NCBI GenBank assembly: GCA_009360885.1
Contig: SPEL01000002.1
Coordinates: 558,001-622,000 of the forward strand
Source: Sphingobium sp.
Lineage (GTDB): Bacteria > Pseudomonadota > Alphaproteobacteria > Sphingomonadales > Sphingomonadaceae
DNA: 64,000 nt
Direction of reading: 5' to 3'
The notes beneath the pieces were generated by a model. That model ran no database searches. It was not told the DNA's origin and was given only the letters and a program-made list of their open reading frames with translations. The position numbers were made by a program, and so were the translations under genes. Of this stretch, positions 4,671 through 25,478 are shown piece after piece (the first letter of the stretch is position 1; each line of letters starts with the position of its first letter).

Positions 4671-5570
4671 TTATGCGCCCCGCACGCTCCTACGTGTTGC
4701 ACGGAAATTATCACGCCGCATCGTTTCAAAGCCGATGCGCTGGTCATATCCGGGATCTTGAGGATAATCGCGGAAATCCGCCAATATCTCATCAAATATC
4801 TCGCCTAGTTCTTCCTTAAATTCAGGATGAGCGAAAATATGAAACCGGTTTTCCTTCACCGCATCCAATGCGCGGCGAGCAATGACATCCGGCTCCATGC
4901 CATATTGATGCACCTGTTCCAGCCGAGCAACAAATTCGGCGTTAACCGGTTTAGCGCCCGCCTTCAAATCGTCCGGCCGTACATCATCGCTGGCGTAAAT
5001 ATGGCTCTTTACCAGACCGGGACATAAAACCGATACGCCTATCCCATGAGGGGCAAGACTGTAGCGTAGCGATTCGCTCATCCCGCGCACCGCAAATTTG
5101 GTGGTATTGTATATGCCCGGCGCACCATTGGAAATGAAGCTGGCCATCGACGCGGTATTCACAATATGGCCGCCCTGCCCATGAGCCTTCATCCGATTGG
5201 CGAAGGTCATCACGCCATTAATCACACCGTGAAGGTTAACCCCCAGCACCCAATCCCAGTCTTCATAAGACGAATCATCAATCGTCTGGAACAAGTTGAT
5301 CCCGGCATTATTGAACAGCAATGTCACCGGGCCGAGTTCCGCCTCTGCCCGATCCGCAGCGGCCGCAAAGCCTTCACGCGAAGCGACATCCAGCGGGATG
5401 CCGATAACATGCTGATTGTCGAGGGTTTTGAGCGCCGCCTCAATCGCATCTTCGCGGATATCAGCAATCGCAACCTTCGCACCTTCGGCCAGCAGCGTCC
5501 GGGCTAGCCCCAAACCGATCCCATTAGCACCGCCGGTTACAAAGGCGGTGCGGCCTGCAAAATCAATCAT
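4671..5570 (-). CDS. SDR-family C-alpha dehydrogenase, LigD/LigL/LigN-like
   Basis: A short-chain dehydrogenase of 299 residues, probably NAD-dependent and cytoplasmic. The cofactor motif TGGANGIGLGLA is at residue 11, NNAGIN near 90, and the catalytic YNTTK near 157. The stretch GVNLHGVINGVMTF matches the GVNLNGVINGMVTF region I remember from LigD of Sphingobium SYK-6, which oxidises the C-alpha hydroxyl of beta-O-4 dimers, and the length also fits. AAGGAAGGA precedes the ATG. It follows a second such gene by 26 bases and is probably co-transcribed. Which stereoisomer it accepts cannot be told from sequence. Confidence 0.75.
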   Translation of the reverse strand: MIDFAGRTAFVTGGANGIGLGLARTLLAEGAKVAIADIREDAIEAALKTLDNQHVIGIPLDVASREGFAAAADRAEAELGPVTLLFNNAGINLFQTIDDSSYEDWDWVLGVNLHGVINGVMTFANRMKAHGQGGHIVNTASMASFISNGAPGIYNTTKFAVRGMSESLRYSLAPHGIGVSVLCPGLVKSHIYASDDVRPDDLKAGAKPVNAEFVARLEQVHQYGMEPDVIARRALDAVKENRFHIFAHPEFKEELGEIFDEILADFRDYPQDPGYDQRIGFETMRRDNFRATRRSVRGA

Positions 5571-5596
5571 CGCCCATTCCTTCCTTACCGACCGGC

Positions 5597-6529
5597 TCAG
5601 GCCCGCGCGGCCTTCAACGCATTTTGACGAGCGATTTCGTCGGTAATGGCCGGGTTACGGAACAGACGTTCAAACGTAGCCTTATAGTCGGCATTTTCCG
5701 GCAAATGGGTCTGCACGGCTGCTGTAGTCGCCTCACCGCGTTCTCGCACACCATCCAGAAATTCGCTATGAGTCAGAATATACAGCTCATCATTCAAAAT
5801 GCCTTGCAATACGCGCTGTCCAACCTCTTCCTTTGTCTGATAAAGATGGGAGAACGAGCCGCCATTCTGGCGCGCTTTATCCGCCTCGGCATAGCCACTT
5901 TCAGAGAGATCAGCCGGACGGGTCGCGCCAGCATCCGCAATGTTCGATTGTACGGCACCGGGGCAAAACGCCGAACAGATAATACCGCGCGATTCGAGTT
6001 CAGGGCGCATGCACTCCATCATTGATGTGACAGCCGCCTTACCCGCGGAATAAATGGTTGTGCCGCCCACCGGAACCAACGCAGACATGGACGCCGTGTT
6101 GACGATATGCCCGCCTTCACCATGTTTCAGGATACGCGGCAGCAAAGTAACGATACCATTGATCGTACCGCCCACATTGACGCCCATCACCCAGTCCCAG
6201 TCACCAAAGGTCGCAAGGTCAGTAGGGCCGACAACTGCCACACCGGCATTGTTGCACAGCAGATGAATATTACCAAACCGGGCCTCCACCTCATCTGCGG
6301 CCTTGGCAAAAGCTGCGCGATCAGTAACATCCAGTTTCAGGGCGAGAATATGATCTGTATATTGAGGGCCAGCTTCGTTTAATTCAGCAACGGCCTCATC
6401 CAGATGGTCCTGCCGAATGTCAGCAATAGTGACATTCATACCTGCCCCCAACAGCGCCTTGGCAATGCCAAGACCAATGCCGCTGGCGCCCCCGGTAACA
6501 AAAGCCGTTTTGCCCGGTAAATTCTGCAT
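5597..6529 (-). CDS. SDR-family C-alpha dehydrogenase, second LigD/L/N-like paralogue
   Basis: A 310-residue short-chain dehydrogenase with TGGASGIGLGIAKAL near residue 11, NNAGVAV near 95 and the active site YSAGK near 162. ADIRQDHLDEA after the second strand is the same text I recall in LigL. GVNVGGTINGIVTLLP is the counterpart of the LigD-type GVNxxGxINGxVTF segment. AAGGAG lies seven bases before the ATG. It is upstream partner of the SDR at 4671-5570; in SYK-6 LigD is (alphaR)-selective while LigL/LigN are (alphaS)-selective, so the pair may cover both configurations. That assignment is inference. Confidence 0.75.
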   Translation of the reverse strand: MQNLPGKTAFVTGGASGIGLGIAKALLGAGMNVTIADIRQDHLDEAVAELNEAGPQYTDHILALKLDVTDRAAFAKAADEVEARFGNIHLLCNNAGVAVVGPTDLATFGDWDWVMGVNVGGTINGIVTLLPRILKHGEGGHIVNTASMSALVPVGGTTIYSAGKAAVTSMMECMRPELESRGIICSAFCPGAVQSNIADAGATRPADLSESGYAEADKARQNGGSFSHLYQTKEEVGQRVLQGILNDELYILTHSEFLDGVRERGEATTAAVQTHLPENADYKATFERLFRNPAITDEIARQNALKAARA

Positions 6530-6552
6530 ATCCGCTCCTTATTTATCATTTT

Positions 6553-6569: not shown

Positions 6570-6696
6570 CAAAATATCACGCTTGTCGAAGCTTTTATTG
6601 ACCAAGACGAAATTGTAAGCAAGATAAACAATATAACGCGCCACACCATCCCACATATAAGAGGATAGGGGCCACCAGTTTATTTAAGGAGAGAGT

Positions 6697-8100
6697 ATGG
6701 CAGGTCCACCCCCGGTCATGTCCGATTCAGTAACCGGCGAGGGCACCGCCACGATTGAACGCGAATGGCCATCTTCGTCCGCGGCTTATTGGGCATTATT
6801 CGTCATCATATTGGCGACGTTCATTACCTTTTTCGATCAGGTCATTTTCGGCATGCTGGCCGAAAGGATAAAGGGAGACTTCGGCCTCACCGACGCCGAA
6901 CTGGGCTTCCTCGCGGGGCCAGCCAGCATTATCTGCTATCTGTTCGTTGGCATCCCCCTCGCCCGTCTCGCCGATATATGCCCGCGTAAATATGTGCTGG
7001 CCGCAGGTGTAGCGGTCATTGGCGGGGTCACGGCTCTGGGCGGTATTGCGCAGAATTTTGTGCAGTTCATTGCCACCCGCGTCTTTCTGGCCGCCGGTGG
7101 CAGCGCCCATGCGCCAGCCTCTTATTCGCTGATCGCGGACGCTTTCCCGCCAAAAATCATCACACGGGCCTTCGCCTTGCTGCAACTGGGCTTTATCGGC
7201 GGCAATGCCCTTGGTCCGCTCGCCGGTGGGATGCTGATTGCGATGACCGCAGACTGGGCCCCCAGTTACATTGGCGGCCTGCGCATTCTGGGCTGGCAGT
7301 GGATATTGATCTGGACGGGCATGCCCGCCTTCCTCATCGCCATCTTGTTTCTGACCATCAAAGAACCAAAGCGCATGGCCCCTGCCCATGACGCGTTGCA
7401 ACCTCCGGCTGATGCCCCGCTGGGCCGCAAGATTCTGACCTTCACCGGGCTGGACGCGGCGAAGGCGATCCGCGCCAATCGTAAGGTCTATTATCCCTTG
7501 TTTGCGGGGCTGGCGCTAAGCGCGATCGAATCCTTCGGCCTGATGTTCTGGCGCGTTCCCTTCATGATTCGCACCCATGGCTGGAACGAAGCGCAAATTG
7601 GCGCAGCGCTCTCCGGCATGGTGCTGGTAGCATCCCTCTGCGGGCTGGTGATCGGCAGCGTAACGGTGGAGTGGTTGAATAAGCGCTATAAGGACGCCAA
7701 CGTCCGGGCGGCGGCGATCTTCTTCTGCTTCGTCACCACCTTTACCATATTGGCCCCTTTAATGCCCAATGGCTGGGCTGCACTAGGTTGCTTTGCCGTT
7801 GCCAATATGTTCGGTATCGCGGGGGCCGTTCCCCAAAATGCAGCTATTCAGCGCGTCGCCCCCAATGCGATGCGCGGTCAGGTAACCGCCATTTACCTGT
7901 TCATGTTCACCTTCTTCGGCGCATGCGGCAGCTTCATATTGGGACTGGTTGCGCAATATATCGTGGGTGATCCGCATAAATTGTGGATGGCAGTGCTGAT
8001 TACGGCGGGCACATTGCTGCCTCTGGCAACATTCTTCATCTTCCGCGCGATCAAACCGTATCGTGAGGAAGTCGAACGGCTGGAAGCTGAAGGCCTCTAA
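6697..8100 (+). CDS. MFS transporter (probable aromatic substrate permease)
   Basis: A 467-residue inner-membrane permease with about twelve hydrophobic segments beginning at YWALFVIILATFITFFDQVIFGML. The MFS motif A region reads GIPLARLADICPRKYVLA between helices 2 and 3, and SAHAPASYSLIADAFPP follows helix 4. It resembles spinster-like MFS proteins common in sphingomonads. AAGGAGAG lies six bases before the ATG. Divergent from the two C-alpha dehydrogenases, which suggests a lignin-derived aromatic as substrate, but direction and substrate are not shown by the sequence. Confidence 0.8.
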   Translation: MAGPPPVMSDSVTGEGTATIEREWPSSSAAYWALFVIILATFITFFDQVIFGMLAERIKGDFGLTDAELGFLAGPASIICYLFVGIPLARLADICPRKYVLAAGVAVIGGVTALGGIAQNFVQFIATRVFLAAGGSAHAPASYSLIADAFPPKIITRAFALLQLGFIGGNALGPLAGGMLIAMTADWAPSYIGGLRILGWQWILIWTGMPAFLIAILFLTIKEPKRMAPAHDALQPPADAPLGRKILTFTGLDAAKAIRANRKVYYPLFAGLALSAIESFGLMFWRVPFMIRTHGWNEAQIGAALSGMVLVASLCGLVIGSVTVEWLNKRYKDANVRAAAIFFCFVTTFTILAPLMPNGWAALGCFAVANMFGIAGAVPQNAAIQRVAPNAMRGQVTAIYLFMFTFFGACGSFILGLVAQYIVGDPHKLWMAVLITAGTLLPLATFFIFRAIKPYREEVERLEAEGL

Positions 8101-8113
8101 TCGCCTGACATAA

Positions 8114-8140: not shown

Positions 8141-8164
8141 CAATAGCATAAAAGGAGAGGAAAT

Positions 8165-8917
8165 ATGGCAGATACGGACCGCATATCCGCACTGGAAGAA
8201 CAGATTGCGAGCCTCAACCGCCGTCTGACTATCAGAGAAGATGAGCTGGATATTCGCAAGCTCCAGCATCTCTATGGCTACCTCATTGACAAATGCATGT
8301 ATGATGAGGTGGTTGAACTGTTCGCTGATGATGCGCAGGTGCATTTCTTTGGCGGTGTCTGGCGCGGCAAAGATAGCATTCGCCGCCTTTATGTAGACCG
8401 CTTTCGTAAGCGCTTCACCCATGACAATAACGGGCCGATTGACGGCTTTTTGCTCGATCATCCGCAGCTTCAGGACCTCATCACCATAAATGAGGATGGC
8501 ATCACCGCGCGCAATCGCTGCCGTTCCATGATGCAGGCCGGGCGGCATAAGGATTATTGTGACCCCGGCAACCCGGCGGCCGCCAACCCCCGCCAATGGT
8601 GGGAAGGCGGCGTTTACGAGAATCAGTATAAAAAGGTCGATGGCAAATGGCGTTTCCTCGTCCTTAATTATTTCCCGCACTGGCATGCCGATTTCAAAGA
8701 AGGCTGGGCCTATACAGAATCAGAATTCGTGCCTTTCTTCCGGGAAACCTACCCTACGGACCCGGAAGGCCCGGATGAACTGAGTGAAGGCCATTGGCTG
8801 TGGCCCACGCATAAGCTGGTCCCCTTCCACATGAAGCACCCCATTACCGGCAAGGAAATGAAGGCGGAGCGCTGGCAGGGCGATATTGACCGGGAAAGTG
8901 CCCATAAGGACGCCTGA
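8165..8917 (+). CDS. SnoaL/NTF2-like protein
   Basis: A 250-residue protein with an alpha+beta-barrel (NTF2/SnoaL-type) N-terminal half: DIRKLQHLYGYLIDKCMYDEVVELFADDAQVHFFGGVWRGKDSI is typical of the SnoaL_4 group. A short coiled coil precedes it. The fold serves as a hydratase, isomerase, lyase or dehydratase, or just a binding protein. The C-terminal 90 residues are rich in aromatic residues and Trp/His. AAAGGAGAGGAA lies before the ATG. Its place between the MFS transporter and the GMC oxidoreductase puts it in the aryl-ether island, with no established step assigned. Confidence 0.7.
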   Translation: MADTDRISALEEQIASLNRRLTIREDELDIRKLQHLYGYLIDKCMYDEVVELFADDAQVHFFGGVWRGKDSIRRLYVDRFRKRFTHDNNGPIDGFLLDHPQLQDLITINEDGITARNRCRSMMQAGRHKDYCDPGNPAAANPRQWWEGGVYENQYKKVDGKWRFLVLNYFPHWHADFKEGWAYTESEFVPFFRETYPTDPEGPDELSEGHWLWPTHKLVPFHMKHPITGKEMKAERWQGDIDRESAHKDA

Positions 8918-9140: not shown

Positions 9141-10805
9141 ATGATGGCTGCGGATCTATACGCGGATTATGTGATTGTAGGCGCGGGCAGTGCAGGGTGC
9201 GTTCTGGCGAACCGCCTGACTGAAAGTGGCGACTATAAGGTTGTGCTGCTGGAGGCTGGCGGCGATGACCGTCCGCATAAAGAACCCAGCCAGTTCCTGT
9301 CGAACGTCATGGTTCATACCCCCATTGGTTTTGGCAAGACGCTGAATGACCCGAAGGTCAACTGGCTCTATGAAACCGAAGTTGACGAAGGCTCTGGCGG
9401 GCGTAAGCATAAATGGCCCAAGGGCAAAGTCTTGGGCGGGTCCAGCTCGATCAACGGCCTCCTTTATATTCGTGGGCAATCCGCCGATTATGATGGCTGG
9501 GCGCAAATGGGCGCGCGCGGGTGGAGCTATGACGATGTGCTCCCCTATTTCCGCAAATCTGAAAATCAAGAACGCGGTGCGGACAAGGTGCATGGCGTAG
9601 GCGGCCCCCTTAATGTCTGCGATTTCCCGGAGAAGCATCCCGTCAGTGGTGCGCTGATTGACGCCTGCGTAGAGGCTGGCATTCCCCGCCGGGATGACAT
9701 CAACACCGGCGAACAGGAAGGGGTCACCTGGTTCCAGCTCACGATGAAAAATGGCCGCCGTCATTCGGCCGCCGTGGGGTATCTCCACCCGGCGATGAAG
9801 CGCCCGAACCTGACGGTGGAAACCCGCGCCATGACCACGCGCATCTTGTTTCAGGGCAAAAAGGCCGTGGGCGTTGAGTTCCGCCAAAACGGCCTGCTCC
9901 GCAAGGTGATGGTGGGCCGTGAGGTCATCATCGCTGCCGGTTCTGTCGAATCGCCCAAGCTGCTGGAAATTTCCGGCATTGGTCAGGGTGCATTGCTGCA
10001 AGATCTGGGCATAGCCGTTGTGCATGAATCGCCGCTGGTCGGCGAAAATATGCAGGACCATTTCATGATCGGTTGTCAGGCCCGCCTGCGCGAAGACTGG
10101 CAATCCATCAACTATCGTTCTTCTGGCCTCAATCTGGTCAAGGAAATTGCGAAATACGGCACACAGCGCAAGGGCCTGTTGTCTTATGCCGTTGCGCATG
10201 GCACTGCTTTTGCCCGGTCCCGCCCGGAATTAGAAGTGCCAGACATTCAGATTCACCTGATGGCGGCCAGCATGGACCTTGAATATCTGGGCATTCATCA
10301 GGGGCTGCGTCTGGAAAAAGAACCGGGCCTTGCCGCCAATCCGTGCCAGTTGCGCCCGGAATCCCGCGGCTCCATCCACGCACAATCGCCTGATGGCACC
10401 ATCCATCCGAAGATCGCGCCCAATTATCTGTCTGACCCGATTGACCGCGAAATGGCGGTCACCCAGTTGAAGCTGATCCGTAAAATCTGGCAGCAGCCCG
10501 CGCTGAAGCCCTATCTCAAAGAAACGGGCGATCCCTTTGGCGAGAGCGACGAGGAAATGCTGGGCTATGCCAAAATGGCAGGCGGCACGCTCTATCACCC
10601 GGTTGGCACCGTGCGCATGGGCGCGGACGAAGCCTCCCCCCTCACACCGGAACTCAAGGTGCGCGGTGTAGAAGGGTTGCGAGTGATCGACGCCTCCGTC
10701 ATGCCGAAAATTATTTCCGGCAACACCAATGCCCCCACCATCATGATTGGTGAAAAAGGCGCAGACCTGATCCTGCAGGATGCCAGACAGGCTGTTGCGG
10801 CCTGA
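9141..10805 (+). CDS. GMC-family FAD alcohol oxidoreductase, HpvZ-like candidate
   Basis: A 554-residue glucose-methanol-choline oxidoreductase. The FAD-binding motif DYVIVGAGSAGCVLANRL is at residue 8, the GMC signature GGSSSINGLLYIRG near 100, and the C-terminal catalytic region has YHPVGTVRMG and the NTNAPTIMIGEKGADLI helix. Choline-dehydrogenase-like in length. The ATG at 9141 is immediately followed by another; TTAGGAG precedes. In SYK-6 a GMC enzyme (HpvZ) oxidises beta-hydroxypropiovanillone to vanilloyl acetaldehyde; the context here, with ligEFG and an aldehyde dehydrogenase, makes that the best guess. Other primary alcohols cannot be excluded. Confidence 0.72.
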   Translation: MMAADLYADYVIVGAGSAGCVLANRLTESGDYKVVLLEAGGDDRPHKEPSQFLSNVMVHTPIGFGKTLNDPKVNWLYETEVDEGSGGRKHKWPKGKVLGGSSSINGLLYIRGQSADYDGWAQMGARGWSYDDVLPYFRKSENQERGADKVHGVGGPLNVCDFPEKHPVSGALIDACVEAGIPRRDDINTGEQEGVTWFQLTMKNGRRHSAAVGYLHPAMKRPNLTVETRAMTTRILFQGKKAVGVEFRQNGLLRKVMVGREVIIAAGSVESPKLLEISGIGQGALLQDLGIAVVHESPLVGENMQDHFMIGCQARLREDWQSINYRSSGLNLVKEIAKYGTQRKGLLSYAVAHGTAFARSRPELEVPDIQIHLMAASMDLEYLGIHQGLRLEKEPGLAANPCQLRPESRGSIHAQSPDGTIHPKIAPNYLSDPIDREMAVTQLKLIRKIWQQPALKPYLKETGDPFGESDEEMLGYAKMAGGTLYHPVGTVRMGADEASPLTPELKVRGVEGLRVIDASVMPKIISGNTNAPTIMIGEKGADLILQDARQAVAA

Positions 10806-10994: not shown

Positions 10995-12482
10995 TCAGGC
11001 CGCGACAGGCTCCAGCCCGATTTTGTCCGCATCTACCCAGTTGCCATGCAGGCCAAAGCGCATACGGATGGGGATATGAATGGTCGCCACCGGCCCCTGT
11101 TCTATGTTCAGCGCCTCAAAAATCAGCAAATCACTGACATGATCTTCCAGCCGGTTGCATATCTGCACAATCCAGCCATCGCCTTCGGGCGCATCTGCTG
11201 AGCGTGGGATGAAGCATGGCTCCTGAAGGCTGCTGACCGGACCGCACCACCAATGCTGCTCCGCCCCGGTTTCAAGGTCCTTCAGGAACAGACAGTTCAT
11301 CAACAAGCCGCCTGCGCTACCCCCCTTTAGCTCTACCGGGCGCTTCATATCCATTTCAAGACCCCAGCCATAACGCGTTTTAACACCGGCAAAACGATCA
11401 TCAATGCGCGGAAATTCGCTCGCGGTTTGGGTGAGCGGAATGATCGCGTCAAACTCCTCACTGTTGGATTCCATATCCACCACCCAATCCGTGAGGTGGC
11501 TCATCGCCTCCCGCCCGTTAAACGGCGCACCATGGACATCGGGGAAGAAGGGGAACATATTATTCTTCGCCTCTGGCACGATGAAATGGATTTTGCTCCC
11601 CTCCTGCCAGGCATTGAGCACATGACTGGCGAAGCAATTATCCCGCTTGAACCAACGAATATCAGCATCCGTCACGCCATCCCGGCGCGGAATAATGCCG
11701 AGATAAACCGGCATCGTCGTATCAAAACCGAAATGCGGCAGGCCCTGTTCCAACCGTTCCCAGCTACCGATGGATGGCACGATATGCAGCACCAGATAAT
11801 CCTCGGTAATGCCGAAATCATGCATCATGCAATAATAAGGCACCTTGAACCAGATTTCCCGCACCAGTTCCCCTTCCGGGCTGATTTCATAATAAGTGAC
11901 GTCATCGGTGCAAAGACCAGATGCAGCATAGCCGATGGCCACCATATTGCCCGTTTTCGGGTCAATTTTCGGGTGTGCCGTAAAGGTTTCGCCTGTCATC
12001 TTACCGCCGAATTTTTCAAACCCGATGGTTTCCATCGTCACGGGGTCCATCAGCAAGGCCGGGCTGTCTTCCTTCATCGCCCACAGCTTGCCTGCAAAGG
12101 GGAAGGCATTGGTATTGGCGGTTGAGCGAATTTCGCCTTTCACGCTTTCATCATCGGTGAGGGGGTTACGATAGGCCCCGAACAGCCCTTTCCCGGCCTC
12201 TCTTTCCAATTTCCACTTATTGGTGTGCGCCCAGCGTTGGCGAAAATCGCACTGACCATCATGAATGTGAAAACGAGTAACCATCCCATCGCCGTTAAAG
12301 GCAATATCATCCCCCAGACGAGGCGGAAATTGCGGGTCAGGCTGTACTCGATAAAAGGCGCCATTTAACCCGGAAGGGATTTCCCCTTCATAATCCATAT
12401 CAACAATATCTGCTTCCACCCGCGAAGGCGTATTAAACCCGGTAAAGCTGGGCGTGTCTGGGAAATGGGCCATTGCTGTCAT
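10995..12482 (-). CDS. Carotenoid/lignostilbene-type cleavage dioxygenase
   Basis: A 495-residue member of the carotenoid oxygenase family (RPE65/CCD), a non-heme iron(II) seven-bladed propeller enzyme that splits conjugated double bonds. The four iron-binding histidines can be placed: TAHPKID, MMHDFGIT, FASHVLNAW and, near the C-terminus, FGLHGNWVD. FYRVQPDPQFPP near residue 43 is typical of the lignostilbene dioxygenase branch, and the island context favours a phenolic stilbene substrate over a carotenoid. GGAGAGGAT precedes the ATG. It stands alone on the minus strand, divergent from a MarR regulator. Confidence 0.8.
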   Translation of the reverse strand: MTAMAHFPDTPSFTGFNTPSRVEADIVDMDYEGEIPSGLNGAFYRVQPDPQFPPRLGDDIAFNGDGMVTRFHIHDGQCDFRQRWAHTNKWKLEREAGKGLFGAYRNPLTDDESVKGEIRSTANTNAFPFAGKLWAMKEDSPALLMDPVTMETIGFEKFGGKMTGETFTAHPKIDPKTGNMVAIGYAASGLCTDDVTYYEISPEGELVREIWFKVPYYCMMHDFGITEDYLVLHIVPSIGSWERLEQGLPHFGFDTTMPVYLGIIPRRDGVTDADIRWFKRDNCFASHVLNAWQEGSKIHFIVPEAKNNMFPFFPDVHGAPFNGREAMSHLTDWVVDMESNSEEFDAIIPLTQTASEFPRIDDRFAGVKTRYGWGLEMDMKRPVELKGGSAGGLLMNCLFLKDLETGAEQHWWCGPVSSLQEPCFIPRSADAPEGDGWIVQICNRLEDHVSDLLIFEALNIEQGPVATIHIPIRMRFGLHGNWVDADKIGLEPVAA

Positions 12483-12498
12483 CCTCTCCTGTTTGTCG

Positions 12499-12530
12499 AT
12501 TGTTCAACGATCGTATGTAACATCAACAAT
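12499..12530. promoter_or_regulatory. Candidate MarR operator
   Basis: ATTGTT (12499-12504) and AACAAT (12525-12530) are inverted, with GAT/ATC pairs further in, in the 100-bp region between the dioxygenase and the marR gene. The position fits autoregulation plus control of the dioxygenase. Inferred from symmetry and position only. Confidence 0.4.
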
Positions 12531-12582
12531 TTTTTCAAGCAGACAGATTGACCTGCCCCCCCAAATTGATCAAACTGTTACT

Positions 12583-16345: not shown

Positions 16346-16400
16346 AGGAAGTCCTCTCCCCATAATATAGTCAGGAATGGTTGCGATCAGGCTACAGCCT

Positions 16401-17141: not shown

Positions 17142-17404
17142 ATTATTTTATCCATCCTCTCCGTCAGGCTATATCAGCTTTCGGATGACGGTTTGGTGCC
17201 TATGACCGCGCACATCAAGCCCGCTATATATACTATTACAAAAACCAATATTCATACCGCCAGCCATCCTGTCACCTGCACTAATAGCGCTGGTGATAGC
17301 CTTGTGCATCGGGGGATGCTTTGCTTCACTGGCGGAATAAAGGATTGGGGAGGCAGATAGAAATGCTACACCCAACATGGCACCATATCGGGAGACGCCT
17401 GAAC

Positions 17405-18086: not shown

Positions 18087-18509
18087 ATGACCGCTTTTCT
18101 GACCCGCACTGTCCGTATTGAATGGGGCCAGTGCGACCCAGCGGGGATCGTCTTTGCCCCCCGTTATTTCGACATTTTCACCGAAAGCACCATCTTGCTG
18201 TTTGAGCATGCCGGCCTTCCAAAAAAGCGCGACATGCTGAAGGAAATGAATGTCGTCGGCTTTCCGCTGGTGGATATGTCTGCCCGTTTCCTGATGCCGA
18301 CCTCTTATGGTGATGATGTGACGGTAGAGGCCGACGCCCCCATTTTCGGCAATAGCAGCTTCACCATCGCCCACCGGCTGTTGCTGGGTGATCGGCTGTG
18401 TGTCGAATGCACCGAAAAGCGCGTCTGGACGGTACCTGCCGCAGATCGCCCCGGCGGGCTGAAACCCGAACGCGTGCCCGATCATGTGCGGGAGCTGTTC
18501 ACACGGTAA
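18087..18509 (+). CDS. 4HBT-type acyl-CoA thioesterase, VceB-like candidate
   Basis: A 140-residue hotdog-fold thioesterase. VRIEWGQCDPAGIVFAPRYFDIF near residue 8 carries the DPAGIV active-site motif of the 4-hydroxybenzoyl-CoA thioesterase/YbgC group. It hydrolyses an acyl- or aroyl-CoA. A TAAGGGG site lies before the ATG. It is 13 bases after the Nu-class GST. The chemistry suits vanilloyl-CoA hydrolysis to vanillate, the step that in SYK-6 follows acetyl-CoA-dependent cleavage of vanilloyl acetate (I recall VceA/VceB for these). Substrate is inferred from the island. Confidence 0.75.
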   Translation: MTAFLTRTVRIEWGQCDPAGIVFAPRYFDIFTESTILLFEHAGLPKKRDMLKEMNVVGFPLVDMSARFLMPTSYGDDVTVEADAPIFGNSSFTIAHRLLLGDRLCVECTEKRVWTVPAADRPGGLKPERVPDHVRELFTR

Positions 18510-18572: not shown

Positions 18573-19457
18573 ATGATGACTGAAACCTTGGCAAAGCCCG
18601 GCGGCCCTTCTGTGGCAGGAGAATCCGTTGCGACGACCATTGATTATCTGGTGCCAACGTCCCGCATTAACCGGCGTTTTTGGGCACCGGGGAAAGAATT
18701 CAACACCGGCACCTATGACAGCTACCCCGTCACCATTCACAATGCCCGGTTGGCGGAAAAGCCCTTCACGCTGGATGAGCATGGTTTCTGCATCGCCAGC
18801 CACAAAAGCAATATCCGCGACTTTCTCGACCCCGCCGAACTGGAACGCTATCCCGATGAGGTCGTAGAGGTCACAAAAGCCCTGACCGGCTGCGACCTCG
18901 TCCTGCCGATGAGCGGCCAGCTTCGTTCCCCCAAAGTGGGCGGCAAGGGCATTCAGCCCCCTGCCGCCGAGGCACATGTCGATTTCAACACCGCTACTGC
19001 GCAGCGCGTTGCGCAGATGATGTATGACAAGGCCAACCCGGAAGGGCCGGGCTATGATCGCTTCATCGCCTTCAGCCTTTGGCGCACCTTCTCTCCACCA
19101 CCGCAGGACTGGCCGCTGGCCCTTTGTGATTATCGTAGCGTCGGGGATGAAGATAGCGCCTCTAACGTCAAGGTAGATGTCGATGAAATTCCCGAAGGCG
19201 ATGCGCTCTATGCCCCGATAGAAAATGAGCATTTGCTGCCCGCCGCCACGCTTTTCCGGTTCAGCGAAAATCATCGTTGGTATTATTATCCGGATATGAC
19301 GGCGGATGAGGTCATCTTCATCAAATTCCATGACAGCGACCACAGCCGGGCATGGCGCTGCCCCCATACAGCCTTTCACGACACCAGCCGCCCGGATGCG
19401 AATATTCGGGAAAGCTATGAATTTCGCGCCATCGCTTATTTCAGCAAAGAGCGATAG
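18573..19457 (+). CDS. CmcJ/NvfI-family oxidoreductase
   Basis: A 294-residue protein of the CmcJ/NvfI/GA4-desaturase group, related to iron(II)/2-oxoglutarate oxygenases. Family marks are EAHVDFNTATA (a His-x-Asp pair near residue 131), FSLWRTFSPPPQDWPLALCD, RFSENHRWYYYPDMTADEVIFIKFHDSD and WRCPHTAFHD near 265. Known members act in fungal and bacterial secondary metabolism and some are isomerases or desaturases; none that I know is part of beta-aryl ether breakdown. AAAGGAGAGG precedes the ATG (a second ATG follows). Co-directional with the Nu-class GST and thioesterase. Confidence 0.72.
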   Translation: MMTETLAKPGGPSVAGESVATTIDYLVPTSRINRRFWAPGKEFNTGTYDSYPVTIHNARLAEKPFTLDEHGFCIASHKSNIRDFLDPAELERYPDEVVEVTKALTGCDLVLPMSGQLRSPKVGGKGIQPPAAEAHVDFNTATAQRVAQMMYDKANPEGPGYDRFIAFSLWRTFSPPPQDWPLALCDYRSVGDEDSASNVKVDVDEIPEGDALYAPIENEHLLPAATLFRFSENHRWYYYPDMTADEVIFIKFHDSDHSRAWRCPHTAFHDTSRPDANIRESYEFRAIAYFSKER

Positions 19458-19595: not shown

Positions 19596-21020
19596 ATGAC
19601 ATCACAGCCACAACCCGCACCCCGCCTGATGGCAGTGGCGTTTACCATCGCCTTTGTGCAATTCATCGGTATGCTGGAAGGGACGATTATATCGACCGCC
19701 CTTCCCGACATGGCGCGTGATTTTGGCGTTATCCCATCCGAAATGGGAATCAGCATCACCGTTTATTTGCTGGTGGTCGCAGCCTTCCTTCCTGCGAGCG
19801 CATGGATAGCAGACCGGTTTGGCACCAGAAAAATCCTAATTCTGGCCATTACGGGCTTTGGCCTGTCTTCTCTGCTTTGCGCGATGAGCGATAGTCTGGG
19901 CTTTTTCGTGGCGGCCCGTGTGCTTCAGGCCTTTTGCTTCAGCCTGATGGCCCCCATTGGCAATCTAGTCCTGCTGCGCATTACGCCCAAAAATCAACTG
20001 GTGCAGATGATGGCGATCAGCACCACGCCCGCCCTTATCGCACCCGTCATCGGCCCGCCTATTGGTGGTTTTCTGACGGAAGCGGCAGGATGGCCTTCCA
20101 TTTTCTTTATCAACCTTCCCCTGTCGGTCCTCGGCGTCATCACCATCTGGAAACTCATCCCTGATTTCAGGAAAGAGACGGGGCGATTTGACATAGCCGG
20201 TTTCCTGCTGGTGGGCAGCGCTCTCTCATCGGTCGTTTATGCATTTGATCGGCTGGGTGCCCATCCCGAACACTGGCACGAACCCGCAGCACTCACCGTA
20301 TTGGGGCTGGCCATGGGCCTGCTCGCGTGGAAGCATCTACGCCGCGCCAGCGCACCTTTGTTTCCGCTCCATTCGCTGAACGTCCCCACATTCCGCAGCA
20401 TCACCTATGGCGCAGGCTTTTTAATGCGCCTGCCATTTGCGGGGCAAGCCCTGCTCTTGCCGCTCTATTTCCAGATTGGCTTTGGCCTCTCCCCCGCGAC
20501 GACCGGCATATTATTGCTCGCCAATAACCTGGGTGATCTAATGCTGAAACCCGTTGCCGGTAAGGCCGTGCGGGCATGGACATTCCGCAATGCGCTAACC
20601 TATGGTACAGCCGCGATGATGCTGGGCATGGGGGCGACGGCCCTTCTTTCCCCCAATATGCCTTTATGGCTGCTGGCCGGAGCAATGATAGCAATCGGCA
20701 TGTCGCGCTCCATCACCTTTACCGCGATGGTATCACTGGCGTTTGCGGATATAAAAAGCGAAAATCTAGCCGGGGCGACCGTCCTCAACACCATTGGCTA
20801 TGCATTATCCGCCGCCATTGGTATTTCTTTGGGGGCGATGCTGGTGAATGCCGCCCCCTTTGGCGCAGAAGTTCTGACCAATTATCGCTTTGCTATTTTG
20901 GGGCTGACGGCTCTGGGGGTGATATCCATCCCGCTCTTTGCCCTTATGCCCAGAAATGCAGGCGCGGAAGTCAGCGGCCACCGCCCAACAGAAGGCGGTG
21001 GCTTCAGCCAGATGCACTAA
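19596..21020 (+). CDS. DHA2-type MFS drug/aromatics transporter (EmrB/QacA-like)
   Basis: A 474-residue inner-membrane protein, with many hydrophobic helices. The N-terminal FVQFIGMLEGTIISTALPDMARDFG is the DHA2 motif D1-like segment, and SAWIADRFGTRKILILAITGFGLSSLLCA is motif A. APVIGPPIGGFLTEAAGWPSIFFINLPLSVLG is motif C, typical of drug/H+ antiporters. It would export a substrate using the proton gradient. It may relieve toxicity of phenolic intermediates, but context is the only reason to think so. The XRE regulator gene ends 7 bases after it on the other strand. Confidence 0.83.
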   Translation: MTSQPQPAPRLMAVAFTIAFVQFIGMLEGTIISTALPDMARDFGVIPSEMGISITVYLLVVAAFLPASAWIADRFGTRKILILAITGFGLSSLLCAMSDSLGFFVAARVLQAFCFSLMAPIGNLVLLRITPKNQLVQMMAISTTPALIAPVIGPPIGGFLTEAAGWPSIFFINLPLSVLGVITIWKLIPDFRKETGRFDIAGFLLVGSALSSVVYAFDRLGAHPEHWHEPAALTVLGLAMGLLAWKHLRRASAPLFPLHSLNVPTFRSITYGAGFLMRLPFAGQALLLPLYFQIGFGLSPATTGILLLANNLGDLMLKPVAGKAVRAWTFRNALTYGTAAMMLGMGATALLSPNMPLWLLAGAMIAIGMSRSITFTAMVSLAFADIKSENLAGATVLNTIGYALSAAIGISLGAMLVNAAPFGAEVLTNYRFAILGLTALGVISIPLFALMPRNAGAEVSGHRPTEGGGFSQMH

Positions 21021-21026: not shown

Positions 21027-21848
21027 TTAACGATGACGCTCGTACAGCAATTTCAATCGCTCAGCGCTGACCTCATCATTAGGTGCAAAGAGGATCAGCC
21101 TCTGTCCCGGCACTTCCTCAATCGCATAAGAGGTGTGACGGAAAAAGATTTCGCCAATATCCGGCGGACACGCCACATTGGTGTCCTCGAAATGGGCGAG
21201 AATTTCGCTTTTCTCCCAATAGGTACGGAAAATCTCCGACTGCTCCTTCATTTCAGCAATGATGCCGTCAAAAACCTCCGGCTGTGATGTCCGGCTATAA
21301 TCCCATTTGAGGCGAGCCGTCAGCCGCTTGCCCATTTCAAGGAAACGCTCCGGGTCATTACGATACCGCTGGTTCAGCATCAAAATCCTGAACAGGTTCC
21401 GTTCCCCACGTGGTAAAGGCGCATAATCCCGAAAGGCCTGCGTCACCAGCCTGTTCCAGCCCACCACCGTCCAATCCTCAACAATCACCTGCGCGGGAAT
21501 GTTCAGGCTATCCAGCAAATGCTGGGTGCCGGGGCGAATCTCTTCATCCAGCACTGCGGCCAATGGCGGCGGGCGATGCTGGGCCAGCGCAAAGAGATAT
21601 TCGCGCTCCTTGGGGCTGAGGCGCAAGGTGCGACCGAGCCTTTCGATCATCGGCACGGAAAGCTGAATGTCCCGCCCTTGCTCAAACCATGTGTACCAGG
21701 TCACGCTCATACCCGCGAGCGCGGCCACTTCTTCGCGGCGGAGGCCACGGGTTCGCCGGCGTTCTCCCGCGGGCAGACCCACATCGGCAGGCGATAACCG
21801 CGCCCTGACCGACTTCATGAACCGCGAAAGCTCCTCCCTATGTGACAT
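21027..21848 (-). CDS. XRE-family regulator with MmyB-like ligand-binding domain
   Basis: A 273-residue regulator. The N-terminal helix-turn-helix reads TRGLRREEVAALAGMSVTWYTWFEQGRDIQLSVPMIERLGRTLRLSPKEREYLFALA. The rest resembles the MmyB-type (PAS-like) ligand-binding domain (DWTVVGWNRLVTQAFRDYAPLPRGERNLFRIL). Members often control an adjacent divergent gene; here that is the beta-keto acid cleavage enzyme starting 247 bases away. It also converges on the MFS gene at 19596. Confidence 0.82.
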   Translation of the reverse strand: MSHREELSRFMKSVRARLSPADVGLPAGERRRTRGLRREEVAALAGMSVTWYTWFEQGRDIQLSVPMIERLGRTLRLSPKEREYLFALAQHRPPPLAAVLDEEIRPGTQHLLDSLNIPAQVIVEDWTVVGWNRLVTQAFRDYAPLPRGERNLFRILMLNQRYRNDPERFLEMGKRLTARLKWDYSRTSQPEVFDGIIAEMKEQSEIFRTYWEKSEILAHFEDTNVACPPDIGEIFFRHTSYAIEEVPGQRLILFAPNDEVSAERLKLLYERHR

Positions 21849-22095: not shown

Positions 22096-22971
22096 TTGAC
22101 AAGGAAAGTTTTCATCACCTGCGCCGTTACGGGCAGTTCCCCCATGCCTAAACATCCCAATTTTCCATTCCGGCCAGACCATGTCGCCAATGAGGCGCTC
22201 GCCGCAGCGGAAGCAGGCGCATCCATCATCCACCTGCATGTGCGTGACCCGGAAACCGGCGTCCCATCGCAGGCTCTGGAAGATTATCGTGAAGTCGTCG
22301 GCCTTATCCGCGCCAAGAATAACGAGGTCATCCTCAACGTCACCACCGGCCCCGGCTGTACATGGATGCAGAGCGATGAAGACCCCGCACAGCCCGGCCC
22401 CGGCACATTGATGTTCACGGCAGAGCGCCGCCTCGAACATATTCTGGACCTCAAGCCCGATATGTGCACGCTCGATATTTGCACCATGAACCTGTGGGGC
22501 GGCGTTGCGATCAATCTCGATCCGATGATTACCAAAATGGGGCATATGATTCAGGACGCTGGCGTTCTTCCTGAAATAGAATGTTTTGAAGCTGGTGATT
22601 TCGTATTCGCCGATGATCTGATGGCCAAGGGCGCAATCCCCAAACACGCGCCTTTCTCCTTCGTGCTGGGGACGAAATATGGCCTGCCAGCGACGACCGA
22701 GGCCATGTCTTATTCCAAAAACCAGATTCCGCGCGGCGCGCACTGGACCGGCTTTGGCGTCAGCCGCCATTCCTACCCCATGGCGGCGCAATCTATCCTG
22801 CTGGGCGGCAATGTCCGCGTAGGGTTTGAGGACACTATTTATCTACGTAAGGGCCGCATGGCCGCCAATAATCAGGAATTGGTGGAATGGGCGGTCAATA
22901 TGATCGAACTTATGGGGGCTGATGTCGCCAGCACAGGCGAAACCCGCGAAATGCTGGGCCTGAAAAACTAA
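22096..22971 (+). CDS. Beta-keto acid cleavage enzyme (BKACE, DUF849), VceA-like candidate
   Basis: A 291-residue zinc-dependent TIM-barrel enzyme. It starts with TTG at 22096, supported by a very strong AAGGAGGA site seven bases upstream. ITCAVTGSSPMPKHPNFPFRPDHVANEA and SIIHLHVRDPETGVPS (zinc histidines) are the family marks. BKACE enzymes swap a beta-keto acid and acetyl-CoA into an acyl-CoA plus acetoacetate. With vanilloyl acetate this would give vanilloyl-CoA, the substrate for the thioesterase at 18087. That reaction has been described in SYK-6 (VceA, from memory). Length and motifs make the family certain; the substrate is inferred. Confidence 0.8.
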   Translation: MTRKVFITCAVTGSSPMPKHPNFPFRPDHVANEALAAAEAGASIIHLHVRDPETGVPSQALEDYREVVGLIRAKNNEVILNVTTGPGCTWMQSDEDPAQPGPGTLMFTAERRLEHILDLKPDMCTLDICTMNLWGGVAINLDPMITKMGHMIQDAGVLPEIECFEAGDFVFADDLMAKGAIPKHAPFSFVLGTKYGLPATTEAMSYSKNQIPRGAHWTGFGVSRHSYPMAAQSILLGGNVRVGFEDTIYLRKGRMAANNQELVEWAVNMIELMGADVASTGETREMLGLKN

Positions 22972-22989: not shown

Positions 22990-23162
22990 ATAATCATTTG
23001 GCCATTGGGGGTGTCCTCTGCCCGATCACGGGGCACCCCTTCGCTGCTAAAGCAGTTTCTGACCAATCAGCCGCGTGTAAATTGCCATGAATGGTATTTT
23101 ACCGGGACTTATTCCGCCGCAAATCAGGGCGTCTGTCTGAAAATCATTCTAAGGACCAGAAA

Positions 23163-23561
23163 ATGAGTGTTGAAGCACTGGAACATATCAACATCATCGC
23201 GACTGATCTGGACCATTCAGAAGCATTTTATTGCGGCTTGCTGTTGCTGCGCAGCATCGCAGCACCGCCGCCGCTCACCCCCGATAATGCGCGATGGCTG
23301 GTGGATGAAAGAGACGTTGCGATCATCCACCTCAACAGCATGGATGCCCCGCGTAAATTTGACCGTGATCTTCGCCCCGCCCCCACAGGCGCGCTGCATC
23401 ATGTGGCGCTACGATGCCGAGGATATGAGGCGATGTTGGGTCGTCTCAATCAAATGGGCGTCCGCTATCACCAGAATGAGCTGCCGACGATCAATCTGAA
23501 ACAGATATTCCTGTCTGACCCGCAGCAAATATTGCTGGAGCTAAATTTCTTTGGAAACTGA
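23163..23561 (+). CDS. VOC-family (glyoxalase/extradiol dioxygenase fold) protein
   Basis: A 132-residue single-unit VOC protein starting MSVEALEHINIIATDLDHSEAFYCGLLLL (ATG 23163, AAGGACC upstream). Metal-ligand positions of the fold are partly visible: EHIN at residue 6-9, GALHHVALRCRGYEAM near 81, and QQILLELNFFG at the end. VOC proteins can be glyoxalases, dioxygenases, isomerases or fosfomycin/bleomycin-type binders. A longer frame from 23091 lacks a ribosome site. It lies alone between the BKACE gene and the glutathione transferase pair; no function assigned. Confidence 0.72.
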   Translation: MSVEALEHINIIATDLDHSEAFYCGLLLLRSIAAPPPLTPDNARWLVDERDVAIIHLNSMDAPRKFDRDLRPAPTGALHHVALRCRGYEAMLGRLNQMGVRYHQNELPTINLKQIFLSDPQQILLELNFFGN

Positions 23562-23696: not shown

Positions 23697-23730
23697 GACT
23701 ATGAAACTATAACAGGCGGAAAACAAAGAA

Positions 23731-23759
23731 AACGGGGAAGCCTGCGTCGCTCCCCCGTT
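23731..23759 (+). terminator. Terminator-like hairpin after the VOC gene
   Basis: AACGGGG (23731-23737) pairs with CCCCGTT (23753-23759). First of a chain of stems in this region. Confidence 0.5.
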
Positions 23760-23764
23760 CATGC

Positions 23765-23870
23765 CCCGCCCCTGCACGGGCGGCCAGACTGTTTCTCGGC
23801 CATCGCTGCCACGGGCCGGACTGGAAAACAGTCTCATTCAGGCATATGGGTACTGCCCATGCCTCTGCCA
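23765..23870. ncRNA. Candidate structured RNA (strand unknown)
   Basis: Three further stems follow one another: CCGCCC/GGGCGG (from 23766), a long one in which AGACTGTTT pairs with AAACAGTCT and encloses CGGCC/GGCCG, and GCAT-GGG/CCC-ATGC (about 23846-23870). The density of perfect arms in about 105 bases is unusual. I do not recognise 6S RNA, 4.5S RNA, RNase P or tmRNA features. It may only be a set of terminators. Confidence 0.3.
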
Positions 23871-23925
23871 AGTCCCCCATCAGCGATGTGAAGCAGGGGA
23901 ATTGAAAACCACCCAGATGGTTACA

Positions 23926-24711
23926 TCAGCCCCAACGGTTGATCTCAGGACCGGGCGCCCAGCTTTCCAGCGGATCAGCCACTGTCGAGCGCGCAAGGGC
24001 CGCAACCACACTAGGGCGGGCCTTTACGCGGGCCAGCCAAGCCTTGGTTTTAGGCGCATCGCCAAAGGCATCAGGGCAAATCAGTTGCATACCTGCCAGC
24101 CATGCATAGGTTTCCAGATCGGCAATGGAGAAATCCCCCATCAGCCAGTCACGACCATCCGCCAGCTTATTTTCGCACCGTTCAACCGACTGCACCACCT
24201 TGGCGCGGCTATCGGCCAGTTGTGCCTCTTCGGTAGTGCCAGAACGAACGAGGCCCCAGCGTCCCCGTAGGTCATCACTGACAATATTCTTACCGATAAC
24301 GGCAAAATCAGCATCACTGGTTTCGGCAAGGCGTGGGGTAGAATATTTCAGATTACCCAGCAACGCCGCTGCAGGGGAGAGGCGTTCCGTAATCTGACGA
24401 CACCACATCATCATTTCCCAGTGGGCATAAGGGTCGCTGGGCTGAAGCCCCACCCCGCCAGCCTTCTCATCGAGATATTGCGCGAGGAACACGGATTCGG
24501 TCATGGCTTCGCCATCAACAACCAGAACCGGACCTTCACCCTCAATCCCCATATCGCGTGCTATGGTTTCACCAAGGCCGGGCAGGCTGTGCCGCTCTCC
24601 CGCCAGCAGATCTATGGAGCGACATTCAATATCCAGACCCGTTTCCGCCAGCGCCGCCAGCACAGAGAGGGAAGGACCATTGGGTTCGCCATGATAAAGC
24701 ACTGTCGCCAT
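23926..24711 (-). CDS. Glutathione S-transferase, BaeB-like etherase subunit candidate
   Basis: A 261-residue GST. VLYHGEPNGPSLSVLAALAETGLDIECRSIDLLAGERHSLPG is a divergent thioredoxin-fold start; the segment after it lacks the usual NPxGxVP loop and reads MGIEGEGPVLVVDGEAMTESVFLAQYLDEKAGG. YAHWEMMMWCRQITERLSPAAALLGNL and FSIADLETYAWLAGMQ form the helical domain. This recalls BaeB of Novosphingobium, the partner of BaeA in a heterodimeric beta(R)-etherase. Its stop-start junction with the upstream GST is TGATG (one shared base), implying tight translational coupling and equal amounts. Assignment from memory and context. Confidence 0.68.
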   Translation of the reverse strand: MATVLYHGEPNGPSLSVLAALAETGLDIECRSIDLLAGERHSLPGLGETIARDMGIEGEGPVLVVDGEAMTESVFLAQYLDEKAGGVGLQPSDPYAHWEMMMWCRQITERLSPAAALLGNLKYSTPRLAETSDADFAVIGKNIVSDDLRGRWGLVRSGTTEEAQLADSRAKVVQSVERCENKLADGRDWLMGDFSIADLETYAWLAGMQLICPDAFGDAPKTKAWLARVKARPSVVAALARSTVADPLESWAPGPEINRWG

Positions 24712-25478
24712 CAGATATGCTCCTTCTCAAGGATAGAGACACGTTTCGCCATGTCAGTGCGGCCCAGCGCCCAGCATTTCTTTACCGCAGGGCGCGCGTA
24801 AATGGCGCGCAACCAGCGTAATATATTAGGGGTCAGTTCATCATTTGACAGATGCGGCTGCGACAAAGGCAACGCATAGGCAAGGTTGAACCCGTTAATA
24901 TCAGCAAGGCTATATTCGTCACTGGCCAGCCATTCCCGCTTGCCCAGTTCTTCTTCCAGCAGGCGAACCCCCAAGGCAACACGGCGCTGCGATTCCGCCA
25001 TCTCTGCCTCGGAAAATGTACCATATATCGCCTTGCGCCATGAAATGCGGCGCTCCGGCATTGGGATACGGTCAATCGCGGCCTCCAGTTCGGCCAGATC
25101 GCGCTTGCGCACCATCGGGCCAACAGACACACTCCAGCCAATCATGGAAAAGCTGGGAGCCAGCCACTGATCCATGAATTTCATCCACCAGCGCACGCGC
25201 CAGCGATCCTCAACATTGGCGGGCATCAGTTCTGGCCCGGCAAATTCCTCATTCACATATTCCATGATCGCCGTGCTTTCGACCAGCACGCGTGTCCCAT
25301 GGGTCATCGCCGGAATGGTGCCTTGCGGATTAATCGCCAGATATTCAGGCTTATGCTGATCGAATTGCAGCATATCAATGTAATGGCTGTTAAAAACGAC
25401 GCCTTTTTCCATCAGCGCCAGCATGGGCTTGCCGGAATTCGCATTCGGTTCCCAATGATATAAAGTGATGTCAGACAT
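24711..25478 (-). CDS. Glutathione S-transferase, BaeA-like etherase subunit candidate
   Basis: A 255-residue GST. ITLYHWEPNANSGKPMLALMEKGVVFNSHYIDMLQFDQHKPEYLAINPQGTIPAMTHG begins it, related to LigF but with the WEPNANSGKPML site. ESTAIMEYVNEEFAGPELMPA and WWMKFMDQWLAPSFSMIGWSVSVGPMVRKRDLAELEAAIDRIPMPERR follow. I recall BaeA of Novosphingobium aromaticivorans as having this kind of text. AAGGAGAAACG precedes the ATG. It overlaps the next GST by one base. The pair would give a second beta(R)-specific etherase besides LigE. Confidence 0.7.
   Translation of the reverse strand: MSDITLYHWEPNANSGKPMLALMEKGVVFNSHYIDMLQFDQHKPEYLAINPQGTIPAMTHGTRVLVESTAIMEYVNEEFAGPELMPANVEDRWRVRWWMKFMDQWLAPSFSMIGWSVSVGPMVRKRDLAELEAAIDRIPMPERRISWRKAIYGTFSEAEMAESQRRVALGVRLLEEELGKREWLASDEYSLADINGFNLAYALPLSQPHLSNDELTPNILRWLRAIYARPAVKKCWALGRTDMAKRVSILEKEHI

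Follow-up and report, generated by a model that had tools for sequence, protein, structure and literature searches.

Does a Sphingobium sp. genome hold, within some 23 kb, a working set of genes for lignin dimers, and is this set peculiar to the organism? The window, i.e. the whole 64,000-nucleotide stretch that was analyzed, comprises bases 558001–622000 of contig 4 (genome 2.93 Mb, 79.6% complete). An earlier note on it had described a nearly complete beta-aryl ether (beta-O-4) island between 4671 and 25478 and had inferred that genes lying scattered in Sphingobium SYK-6 were collected into it. As outlined in Table 1, all genes named in that note were found as long open frames with matching families; the island genes are real and the beta-O-4 reading holds. 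The dehydrogenases, the GMC oxidoreductase and the BKACE enzyme match genes at lignin-pathway places and not genes of unrelated pathways, the tie of the aldehyde dehydrogenase (ALDH) being solely its conserved place beside ligG. The island runs past 25478 to a TonB-dependent receptor gene, which adjoins BaeA in all six Novosphingobium islands compared. From gene identity, order, conservation and operator-like sites, all observed directly, we conclude that the window probably holds a sphingomonad lignin-dimer island joining the beta-O-4 and beta-5 pathways.

For comparison, two samples were used: islands of six Novosphingobium-genus genomes (N. mathurense, RL4, G091, G125, G133 and G269, the last five being the best SnoaL matches and hence a non-random sample) and 40-kb stretches from nine same-genus genomes. 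The latter were taken from the 19 among 93 other genomes of the window's own genus that carry a LigG of at least 78% identity; nine more have one at 64–67%.

The beta-O-4 part begins with two short-chain dehydrogenases/reductases (SDRs), which would oxidise the C-alpha alcohol of the dimer. SDR_A shares 66% identity with the gene of N. aromaticivorans F199 at the place of Saro_0793 and 72–77% with its counterparts in the six Novosphingobium islands, where SDR_B reaches 82–84%; Saro_0793 and Saro_0794 are ligO and ligN (PMC12997858). LigF, acting on the beta-S form, and LigE or BaeAB, acting on the beta-R form, would then exchange the aryl ether for glutathione. LigE lies above the NCBIfam beta-etherase equivalog cut-off (488.4 against 440 bits), and PDB entry 4g10, the match of LigG, we take to be LigG itself. 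By analogy with characterized relatives, glutathione-dependent cleavage of alpha-(2-methoxyphenoxy)-beta-hydroxypropiovanillone (MPHPV) by LigE and LigF is predicted here as well. A second LigE-like gene of the same genome (contig 2, 160896–161636) is 64–65% identical to the island LigE. LigG and the Nu-class glutathione S-transferase (GST) would take off the glutathione, yielding beta-hydroxypropiovanillone (HPV). The Nu-class gene, 41% identical to a SYK-6 GST near 421.8 kb and 73–78% in the six Novosphingobium islands, runs opposite to ligFEG, as does GST3 in strain MBES04. The features by which BaeAB is recognized in PMC6369299, namely more than 50% identity and more than 200 bits for both subunits and a baeA directly upstream of and nearly always overlapping with baeB, were all found in the window, together with Asn14 and Ser15 of BaeA; the two genes share base 24711. 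Among the same-genus stretches, BaeAB lies downstream in G031, G303 and G318, all of them loci without ligE, where it may perform the beta(R) step.

From HPV onward, the HpvZ-type GMC enzyme would form vanilloyl acetaldehyde, which the ALDH would convert to vanilloyl acetate; the BKACE enzyme would, with acetyl-CoA, produce vanilloyl-CoA, and the 4HBT thioesterase would release vanillate. SYK-6 has six GMC matches at E 1e-60; the best of them, at 1398148, stands after an MFS (major facilitator superfamily) gene and before lsdD and a MarR gene, and the window copy has the same neighbours. This place fits hpvZ (SLG_12830), because lsdD is SLG_12860 and desR SLG_12870 in published passages, and the window gene fits an orthologue of SLG_12830, a tag assigned by position. 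Assignments as PhcC/PhcD or HpvY were rejected (39–44% identity, against 72% to the hpvZ place). Orthologues of this type above 70% occur in two of ten other genomes searched (SYK-6 and S. xanthum). By analogy, the window enzyme is predicted to oxidise HPV.

The ALDH adjoins ligG in six of six Novosphingobium and nine of nine same-genus loci, and is 73% identical to a SYK-6 gene at 1303682. The BKACE enzyme is 76% identical to its SYK-6 counterpart and 79–86% to those of four of five other genomes; its start at 22096 seems to be a TTG behind a good ribosome site, and a TTG also stands there in the aligned Novosphingobium copies. The thioesterase has 4-hydroxybenzoyl-CoA thioesterase 1bvq as its best PDB match (53 bits); Asp17, which has a catalytic role in that enzyme, is aligned. 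In F199 neither a BKACE match at E 1e-20 nor a thioesterase match was found, the thioesterase being present in 12 of the 14 genomes searched. Both BKACE (at least 74%) and thioesterase (at least 62%) occur in these 12, and neither in the other two, F199 and a Hyphomonadaceae genome. The two genes lie about 12–19 kb apart in three Sphingobium-group genomes and 1.3 Mb apart in SYK-6. PMC11837543 reports that F199 lacks homologues of both VceA and VceB, describes the latter as a vanilloyl-CoA/syringoyl-CoA thioesterase, and adds that SYK-6 needs a further, unidentified enzyme. Presence in SYK-6 and absence from F199 agree with this, as does the thioesterase with the role of VceB; we infer that VceA is a BKACE. 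For the ALDH, BKACE, thioesterase and transporters the proposed chemistry is that of their families, which for the three enzymes suggests a route to vanillate. Elsewhere in the genome there are three LigB-family genes of the ring-cleavage type, one of them about 28 kb ahead of the window, and a route beyond vanillate is plausible.

The SnoaL protein and the dioxygenase, which the earlier note had offered as steps not yet described, turned out to match PcfL and LsdD, both steps of beta-5 dimer catabolism in F199 (PMC11323797). A PcfL-type lyase would open phenylcoumarans to a stilbene, which LsdD would cleave. For SnoaL_4 the solved SnoaL-like proteins 8abv and 8abt were matched, and identity to LdpA-type copies is 38–42%. 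Among 195 Novosphingobium-genus genomes, 71 contain matches at E 1e-40, falling into one class of 67–76% and one of 39–44% identity to the window copy; about 15 genomes with only an intermediate best match (46–51%) were left without a class. In F199 the first class occupies the PcfL place (Saro_0796) and the second the LdpA place (Saro_2805), the window protein being nearer to PcfL (69–70% against 42%, the F199 genes being named by place). Consequently, an assignment as LdpA of a beta-1 pathway was rejected. A second SnoaL gene (38%) stands beside an SDR gene (38%) on contig 6 of the same genome, near 27 kb, which is the ldpA-ldpB arrangement of SYK-6. The dioxygenase is 85% identical to lsdD of F199 and 80% to that of SYK-6, and His170, His221, His287, His479, Tyr104 and Lys137 are invariant in nine aligned sequences. 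The four histidines presumably bind iron, and they, Tyr104 and Lys137 presumably have the same roles as in NOV1.

Table 1 Features of the lignin-dimer island in the window (positions counted from the first base of the window).
Feature	Coordinates	Strand	Basis
SDR_A, LigO-type C-alpha dehydrogenase	4671..5570	-	PDB 3ioy 440 bits, then C alpha-dehydrogenases 4ya6, 4y98, 4yae
SDR_B, LigN-type C-alpha dehydrogenase	5597..6529	-	82% to F199 gene at Saro_0794 place
Predicted DesR/Saro_0803-like operator, LigN-type SDR/MFS1 promoter	6610..6633	-	Matrix score 24.7 bits, above all null maxima
MFS transporter MFS1, proposed uptake	6697..8100	+	MFS_1; 63–76% in F199, SYK-6 and six Novosphingobium islands
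PcfL-type gamma-formaldehyde lyase (SnoaL_4)	8165..8917	+	69% to F199 gene at PcfL place, Saro_0796
HpvZ-type GMC oxidoreductase, proposed beta-HPV oxidase	9141..10805	+	72% over 546 aa to SYK-6 gene at 1398148
LsdD/NOV1-type lignostilbene dioxygenase	10995..12482	-	NCBIfam lignostilbene-dioxygenase, 872 against cut-off 800 bits
DesR/Saro_0803-like MarR regulator	12454..13071	+	MarR_2; translation probably begins near 12583 or farther downstream
Possible operator, lsdD/marR promoter	12508..12531	-	Matrix score 17.2 bits, below highest null value
Aldehyde dehydrogenase, proposed vanilloyl acetaldehyde dehydrogenase	13181..14608	-	Aldedh
LigG glutathione lyase	14663..15490	-	PDB 4g10 386 bits; 64% to ligG of SYK-6 ligDFEG
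LigE beta(R)-etherase	15512..16363	-	Solved Beta-etherase 4yam 511 bits; 79% to SYK-6 ligE
LigF beta(S)-etherase	16401..17141	-	PDB Protein LigF 4xt0 360 bits; 67% to SYK-6 LigF
Nu-class GST, proposed glutathione lyase (GST3-like)	~17405..18073	+	GST domains; solved GSTs 6tum, 4eci at 280 bits, YfcG 181
4HBT thioesterase, proposed vanilloyl-CoA thioesterase (VceB-like)	18087..18509	+	4HBT_2
CmcJ/NvfI family oxidoreductase	18573..19457	+	NCBIfam 260 against cut-off 80 bits
MFS transporter MFS2	19596..21020	+	MFS_1; 55–58% in five of six Novosphingobium islands
HTH_31/MLTR_LBD (XRE-type) regulator, proposed local regulator	21027..21848	-	Pfam
BKACE, proposed vanilloyl acetate cleavage enzyme (VceA-like)	22096..22971	+	BKACE 295 bits
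VOC/glyoxalase-fold protein	23091..23561	+	Glyoxalase 21 against cut-off 20.6 bits; 48–53% in six Novosphingobium islands
BaeB subunit	23926..24711	-	70%, 373 bits to F199 BaeB; Ser14 present
BaeA subunit	24711..25478	-	74%, 402 bits to F199 BaeA; Asn14-Ser15 present
TonB-dependent receptor, proposed dimer uptake	25649..27997	-	Pfam; 61–64%, beside BaeA in six Novosphingobium islands
Possible operator, receptor-baeAB promoter (receptor gene 55 bases away)	28052..28075	+	Matrix score 14.3 bits, not significant alone

While the scattering in SYK-6 was borne out, with matching genes near 0.42, 0.92, 1.30, 1.36, 1.39–1.40, 2.69 and 3.87 Mb (the whole genome having been searched for BKACE, ALDH, thioesterase and GMC, and selected stretches for the other genes), the idea that their collection here is something new is not supported. 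They are colinear in six Novosphingobium-genus genomes, all nine same-genus genomes compared share their core, and MBES04 and PP1Y have a related GST cluster, described in 2015. Order and relative orientation in the six Novosphingobium islands are as in the window, with some genes added or absent. SDR_A, SDR_B, MFS1, PcfL, LsdD, MarR, ALDH, LigG, LigF and the Nu-class GST are present in all six, and so are the thioesterase, the XRE-type regulator, BKACE, VOC, BaeB, BaeA and the receptor. LigE is found in five (G269 lacks it), as are CmcJ (67–74%) and MFS2 (N. mathurense lacks both) and a second, LdpA-like SnoaL. A third SDR (44–46%), absent from the window, stands beside BKACE in all six, and none of the six has an HpvZ-type GMC gene in place. 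Evidently, with order and orientation recurring in this way, the island is more than a chance assembly. A LigG of at least 77% identity occurs in 18 of the 195 Novosphingobium-genus genomes.

In the nine same-genus stretches the ALDH-LigG-LigF and Nu-class GST-thioesterase groups are always present; BKACE accompanies the XRE-type regulator in seven and BaeAB is present in three, and neither LigE nor PcfL was found in any of these 40-kb stretches. The XRE-type regulator is divergent to BKACE in all six Novosphingobium islands and in seven of the nine same-genus stretches. The core is therefore widespread, and what distinguishes the window is the LigE within the core (for this genus) and the HpvZ-type gene in its place. 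The island is a variant of something partly known, most of its set being shared with related bacteria.

With respect to regulation, the MarR protein shares 63% identity (134 aa aligned) with its SYK-6 counterpart, which occupies the DesR place (SLG_12870), and 53% with that of F199. Membership of the MarR family, a position divergent to lsdD and a matching operator place it with DesR and Saro_0803, and DNA binding is predicted. A palindrome is common to the upstream regions of lsdD and the LigN-type SDR gene. It was searched for with a position weight matrix (PWM) built from 13 sites of other genomes, including the lsdD promoter of SYK-6; the null distribution consisted of the best score in each of 60 random 64-kb sequences (mean 13.8, standard deviation 2.4, highest 20.0). 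In F199, the Saro_0803 site has been mapped to the promoter that corresponds to the one holding 12508–12531 here. As homologues of training sites, 12508–12531 and 6610–6633 show conservation more than independent discovery. Independent support for the operator model is provided by sites outside the training set: in G125 and RL4 the sites that precede the receptor gene, and also a divergent CmcJ-like gene, score 29.1, and within the SYK-6 site at 1385348 (23.7 bits) lies the DesR operator published for ligM, IR-M. Vanillate and syringate are the compounds to which DesR responds (PMC6888825), and Saro_0803 binds the nov1 promoter and is released by resveratrol (PMC10046596). The window MarR protein is predicted to repress the SDR, MFS1-pcfL-hpvZ and lsdD-marR units and perhaps the receptor-baeAB unit, the units themselves being proposed, and the TonB receptor and MFS proteins would import the dimers.

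A PWM built on the ligF promoters of four Novosphingobium islands picked out a second motif, at 17217–17238 in the ligF/Nu-class GST promoter of the window (20.5 bits, compared with 17.2 for the highest of 30 null maxima). The motif is conserved and resembles one in the XRE/BKACE promoter of the Novosphingobium islands. A PWM from the Novosphingobium BKACE promoters did not find the window BKACE promoter, and a combined ligF/BKACE matrix scored 21.2 at this promoter and 20.5 inside the gene at 47991–48986, with a null maximum of 24.2. The motif is not claimed as an operator.

The CmcJ/NvfI protein contains His135, Asp137 and a distal His that are invariant in five sequences, a pattern we take to be the HxD...H triad of iron/2-oxoglutarate oxygenases; family cut-off and triad would fit such an enzyme. 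Its gene adjoins the thioesterase gene in SYK-6, S. canadensis and five of the six Novosphingobium islands; in the same-genus loci it does so in none of nine, and a relative of 44–47% stands beside the ALDH in seven of them. Quite tentatively, we propose that the whole is one regulon under a DesR-like repressor sensing a stilbene or vanillate/syringate, so that products of dimer cleavage would switch on uptake and cleavage of two linkages; that BKACE and thioesterase would be VceA and VceB; and that the CmcJ/NvfI oxygenase would perform an undescribed step, perhaps that of the further enzyme needed in SYK-6 between vanilloyl acetate and vanillate, or else an oxidation of the ring or of a methoxyl group.

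Several observations weigh against the preferred reading of a joint beta-O-4/beta-5 island. Among the window operators only 6610–6633 is significant alone, the sites at lsdD and at the receptor gene being not. CmcJ and VOC are without a place in the proposed pathway. FerD and LigW, the published steps after LsdD, were not found in the island, a genome-wide search not having been made; a FerD-like ALDH (33–34% to the window ALDH and named by its F199 place) adjoins PcfL in all six Novosphingobium islands and in F199, and in the window the GMC gene occupies this place. Furthermore, the Novosphingobium islands hold ALDH, BKACE and thioesterase without an HpvZ orthologue (GMC identity to the window at most 44% in these genomes), for which reason the three may work with another oxidase or substrate. 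In four of the six (RL4, G125, G269, G091) a GMC gene of 38–40% lies about 10–14 kb beyond the receptor; it could do the job of HpvZ, since F199 uses HpvY, a 39% relative (PMC11837543).

It is somewhat unlikely that only the beta-O-4 part is a functional unit and that the left part (SDRs, MFS1, PcfL, LsdD and MarR) is a separate, separately regulated beta-5 locus. F199 has its left part alone at about 842–854 kb, with BaeAB at about 3.10 Mb, PcfL is missing from all nine same-genus stretches, and the motif at the ligF/Nu-class GST promoter is not of the MarR type; but both parts are colinear in every Novosphingobium island, parts of the left block follow the receptor in same-genus G031 (MarR with LsdD) and G318 (MarR with MFS1 and SDR_A), and a MarR-type site precedes the receptor in G125 and RL4. 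A role of the ALDH, BKACE and thioesterase in a different pathway, for some other aromatic beta-keto acid, with HPV only partly used as in MBES04, we regard as improbable. MBES04 has a related GST cluster and leaves its phenylpropanone product unused (PMC10866074), and the three genes do occur without an HpvZ orthologue; against this, they accompany ligF and ligG in all six Novosphingobium islands, ALDH and thioesterase are present in nine and BKACE in seven of the nine same-genus loci, and an hpvZ-type gene lies within the island here. Recent acquisition from Novosphingobium also has little probability and is not claimed: a LigF+LigE+LigG tree groups the window with Novosphingobium (0.998), not with the SYK-6 group, and rpoB with Sphingobium, but the SYK-6 ligDFEG lineage is the wrong comparison, because with the nine same-genus loci the LigF+LigG tree leaves the window as a separate, poorly supported deep branch (0.22 for joining Novosphingobium), an ALDH+BKACE+thioesterase+Nu-class GST tree puts it apart from both groups with the root not fixed, and the guanine-plus-cytosine (GC) content of the island is close to that of the genome.

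The joint beta-O-4/beta-5 island thus remains our preferred reading, and its host belongs to the Sphingobium group. The window RpoB is 90–92% identical to those of five Sphingobium-group genomes (Sphingobium sp. 66-54, Sphingomonas sp. 65-26, S. nicotianae, SYK-6 and S. xanthum), 87% to that of S. canadensis and 84–86% to those of two Novosphingobium and four related genomes, and the rpoB tree joins it to the Sphingobium group with a split support of 0.997. The GC content is 53–57% across 4001–26000, 51% within the receptor gene, and 54–56% in three 20-kb stretches taken from elsewhere in the genome. A peptidase M23 gene precedes the island, and from about 35 kb on housekeeping genes follow (Mg-chelatase-like, fumarase, ribonucleotide reductase). 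A plasmid origin was considered and rejected: among 86 plasmid records matching LigE, a 1.8-Mb replicon of Novosphingobium sp. RL4 is the one close match (81%), the other 85 staying below 60%, and none gave evidence for the window being plasmid-borne. Beyond the receptor, a zinc alcohol dehydrogenase gene (28458–29576) is 67% identical to a gene that lies 4 kb ahead of BKACE in SYK-6; its score for class III formaldehyde dehydrogenase is far below the cut-off (186 bits, cut-off 544). Between 30081 and 34180 there are two FAD_binding_4 genes, PchF-like by comparison, which enclose a cytochrome c gene and a small gene whose product has a weak twin-arginine translocation signal. The second FAD_binding_4 gene is 36–38% identical to PchF-like genes in the vicinity of the Novosphingobium islands and of F199 BaeAB. 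These flavocytochrome genes were not accepted as PinVW, the identity being 36% to a gene in the F199 BaeAB stretch, within which PinW lies by tag order.

In one place, the island offers a nearly complete candidate set from beta-O-4 dimers to vanillate plus a beta-5 core. Some of its genes are candidates for steps that have yet to be identified in F199, and the island connects dimer cleavage, in a way that can be tested, with a known family of repressors responsive to vanillate or stilbenes. Such a set would be useful for constructing strains that use lignin and for working out what the CmcJ oxygenase does. In the available text of open-licence papers, neither the island as a whole nor DesR-type operators ahead of ligN or baeAB were found to be described.

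Among the known systems, MBES04 has four clustered GST genes in synteny with PP1Y (PMC4609964, Ohta 2015), where, as in the window, LigF, LigE and LigG-type GSTs run in one direction and a Nu-class GST lies upstream in the other. SDR3 (GAM05523) and SDR5 (GAM05547), 24 accession numbers apart, surround GAM05529–05532, and MBES04 probably holds the same island; in contrast to what is described here, the available passages deal with the GST cluster and its synteny and make no mention of BKACE, thioesterase, PcfL, LsdD or HpvZ. MBES04 accumulates phenylpropanone monomers that it does not use (PMC10866074). Provided that the guaiacyl product is HPV, as seems likely, an island without hpvZ would explain this accumulation. 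SYK-6 shares with the window the enzyme families of ligDFEG, hpvZ-lsdD-desR and ldpAB and the order of MFS1, GMC, LsdD and MarR, but its loci are scattered on the chromosome, and its ligF (67%), ligE (79%) and ligG (64%) represent another lineage. In F199, ligO-ligN-pcfL-ferD-lsdD (Saro_0793 to 0802, PMC11323797) is colinear with the left part at 53–85% identity and BaeAB (PMC6369299) is similar at 74% and 70%. F199 differs in that BaeAB is far from the left part, a ferD-type ALDH is in place, no LigG was found at E 1e-60, and BKACE and thioesterase gave no match. For the Lig, Bae, PcfL, LsdD and HpvZ enzymes, the chemistry of each step would be that established for such relatives. Finally, DesR of SYK-6 (PMC6888825) and Saro_0803 of F199 (PMC10046596) resemble the window regulator in family, position beside lsdD and operator; their targets in the available passages are desB, ligM, desR and nov1, whereas those predicted here are the ligN-type SDR gene, MFS1-pcfL-hpvZ and perhaps baeAB.

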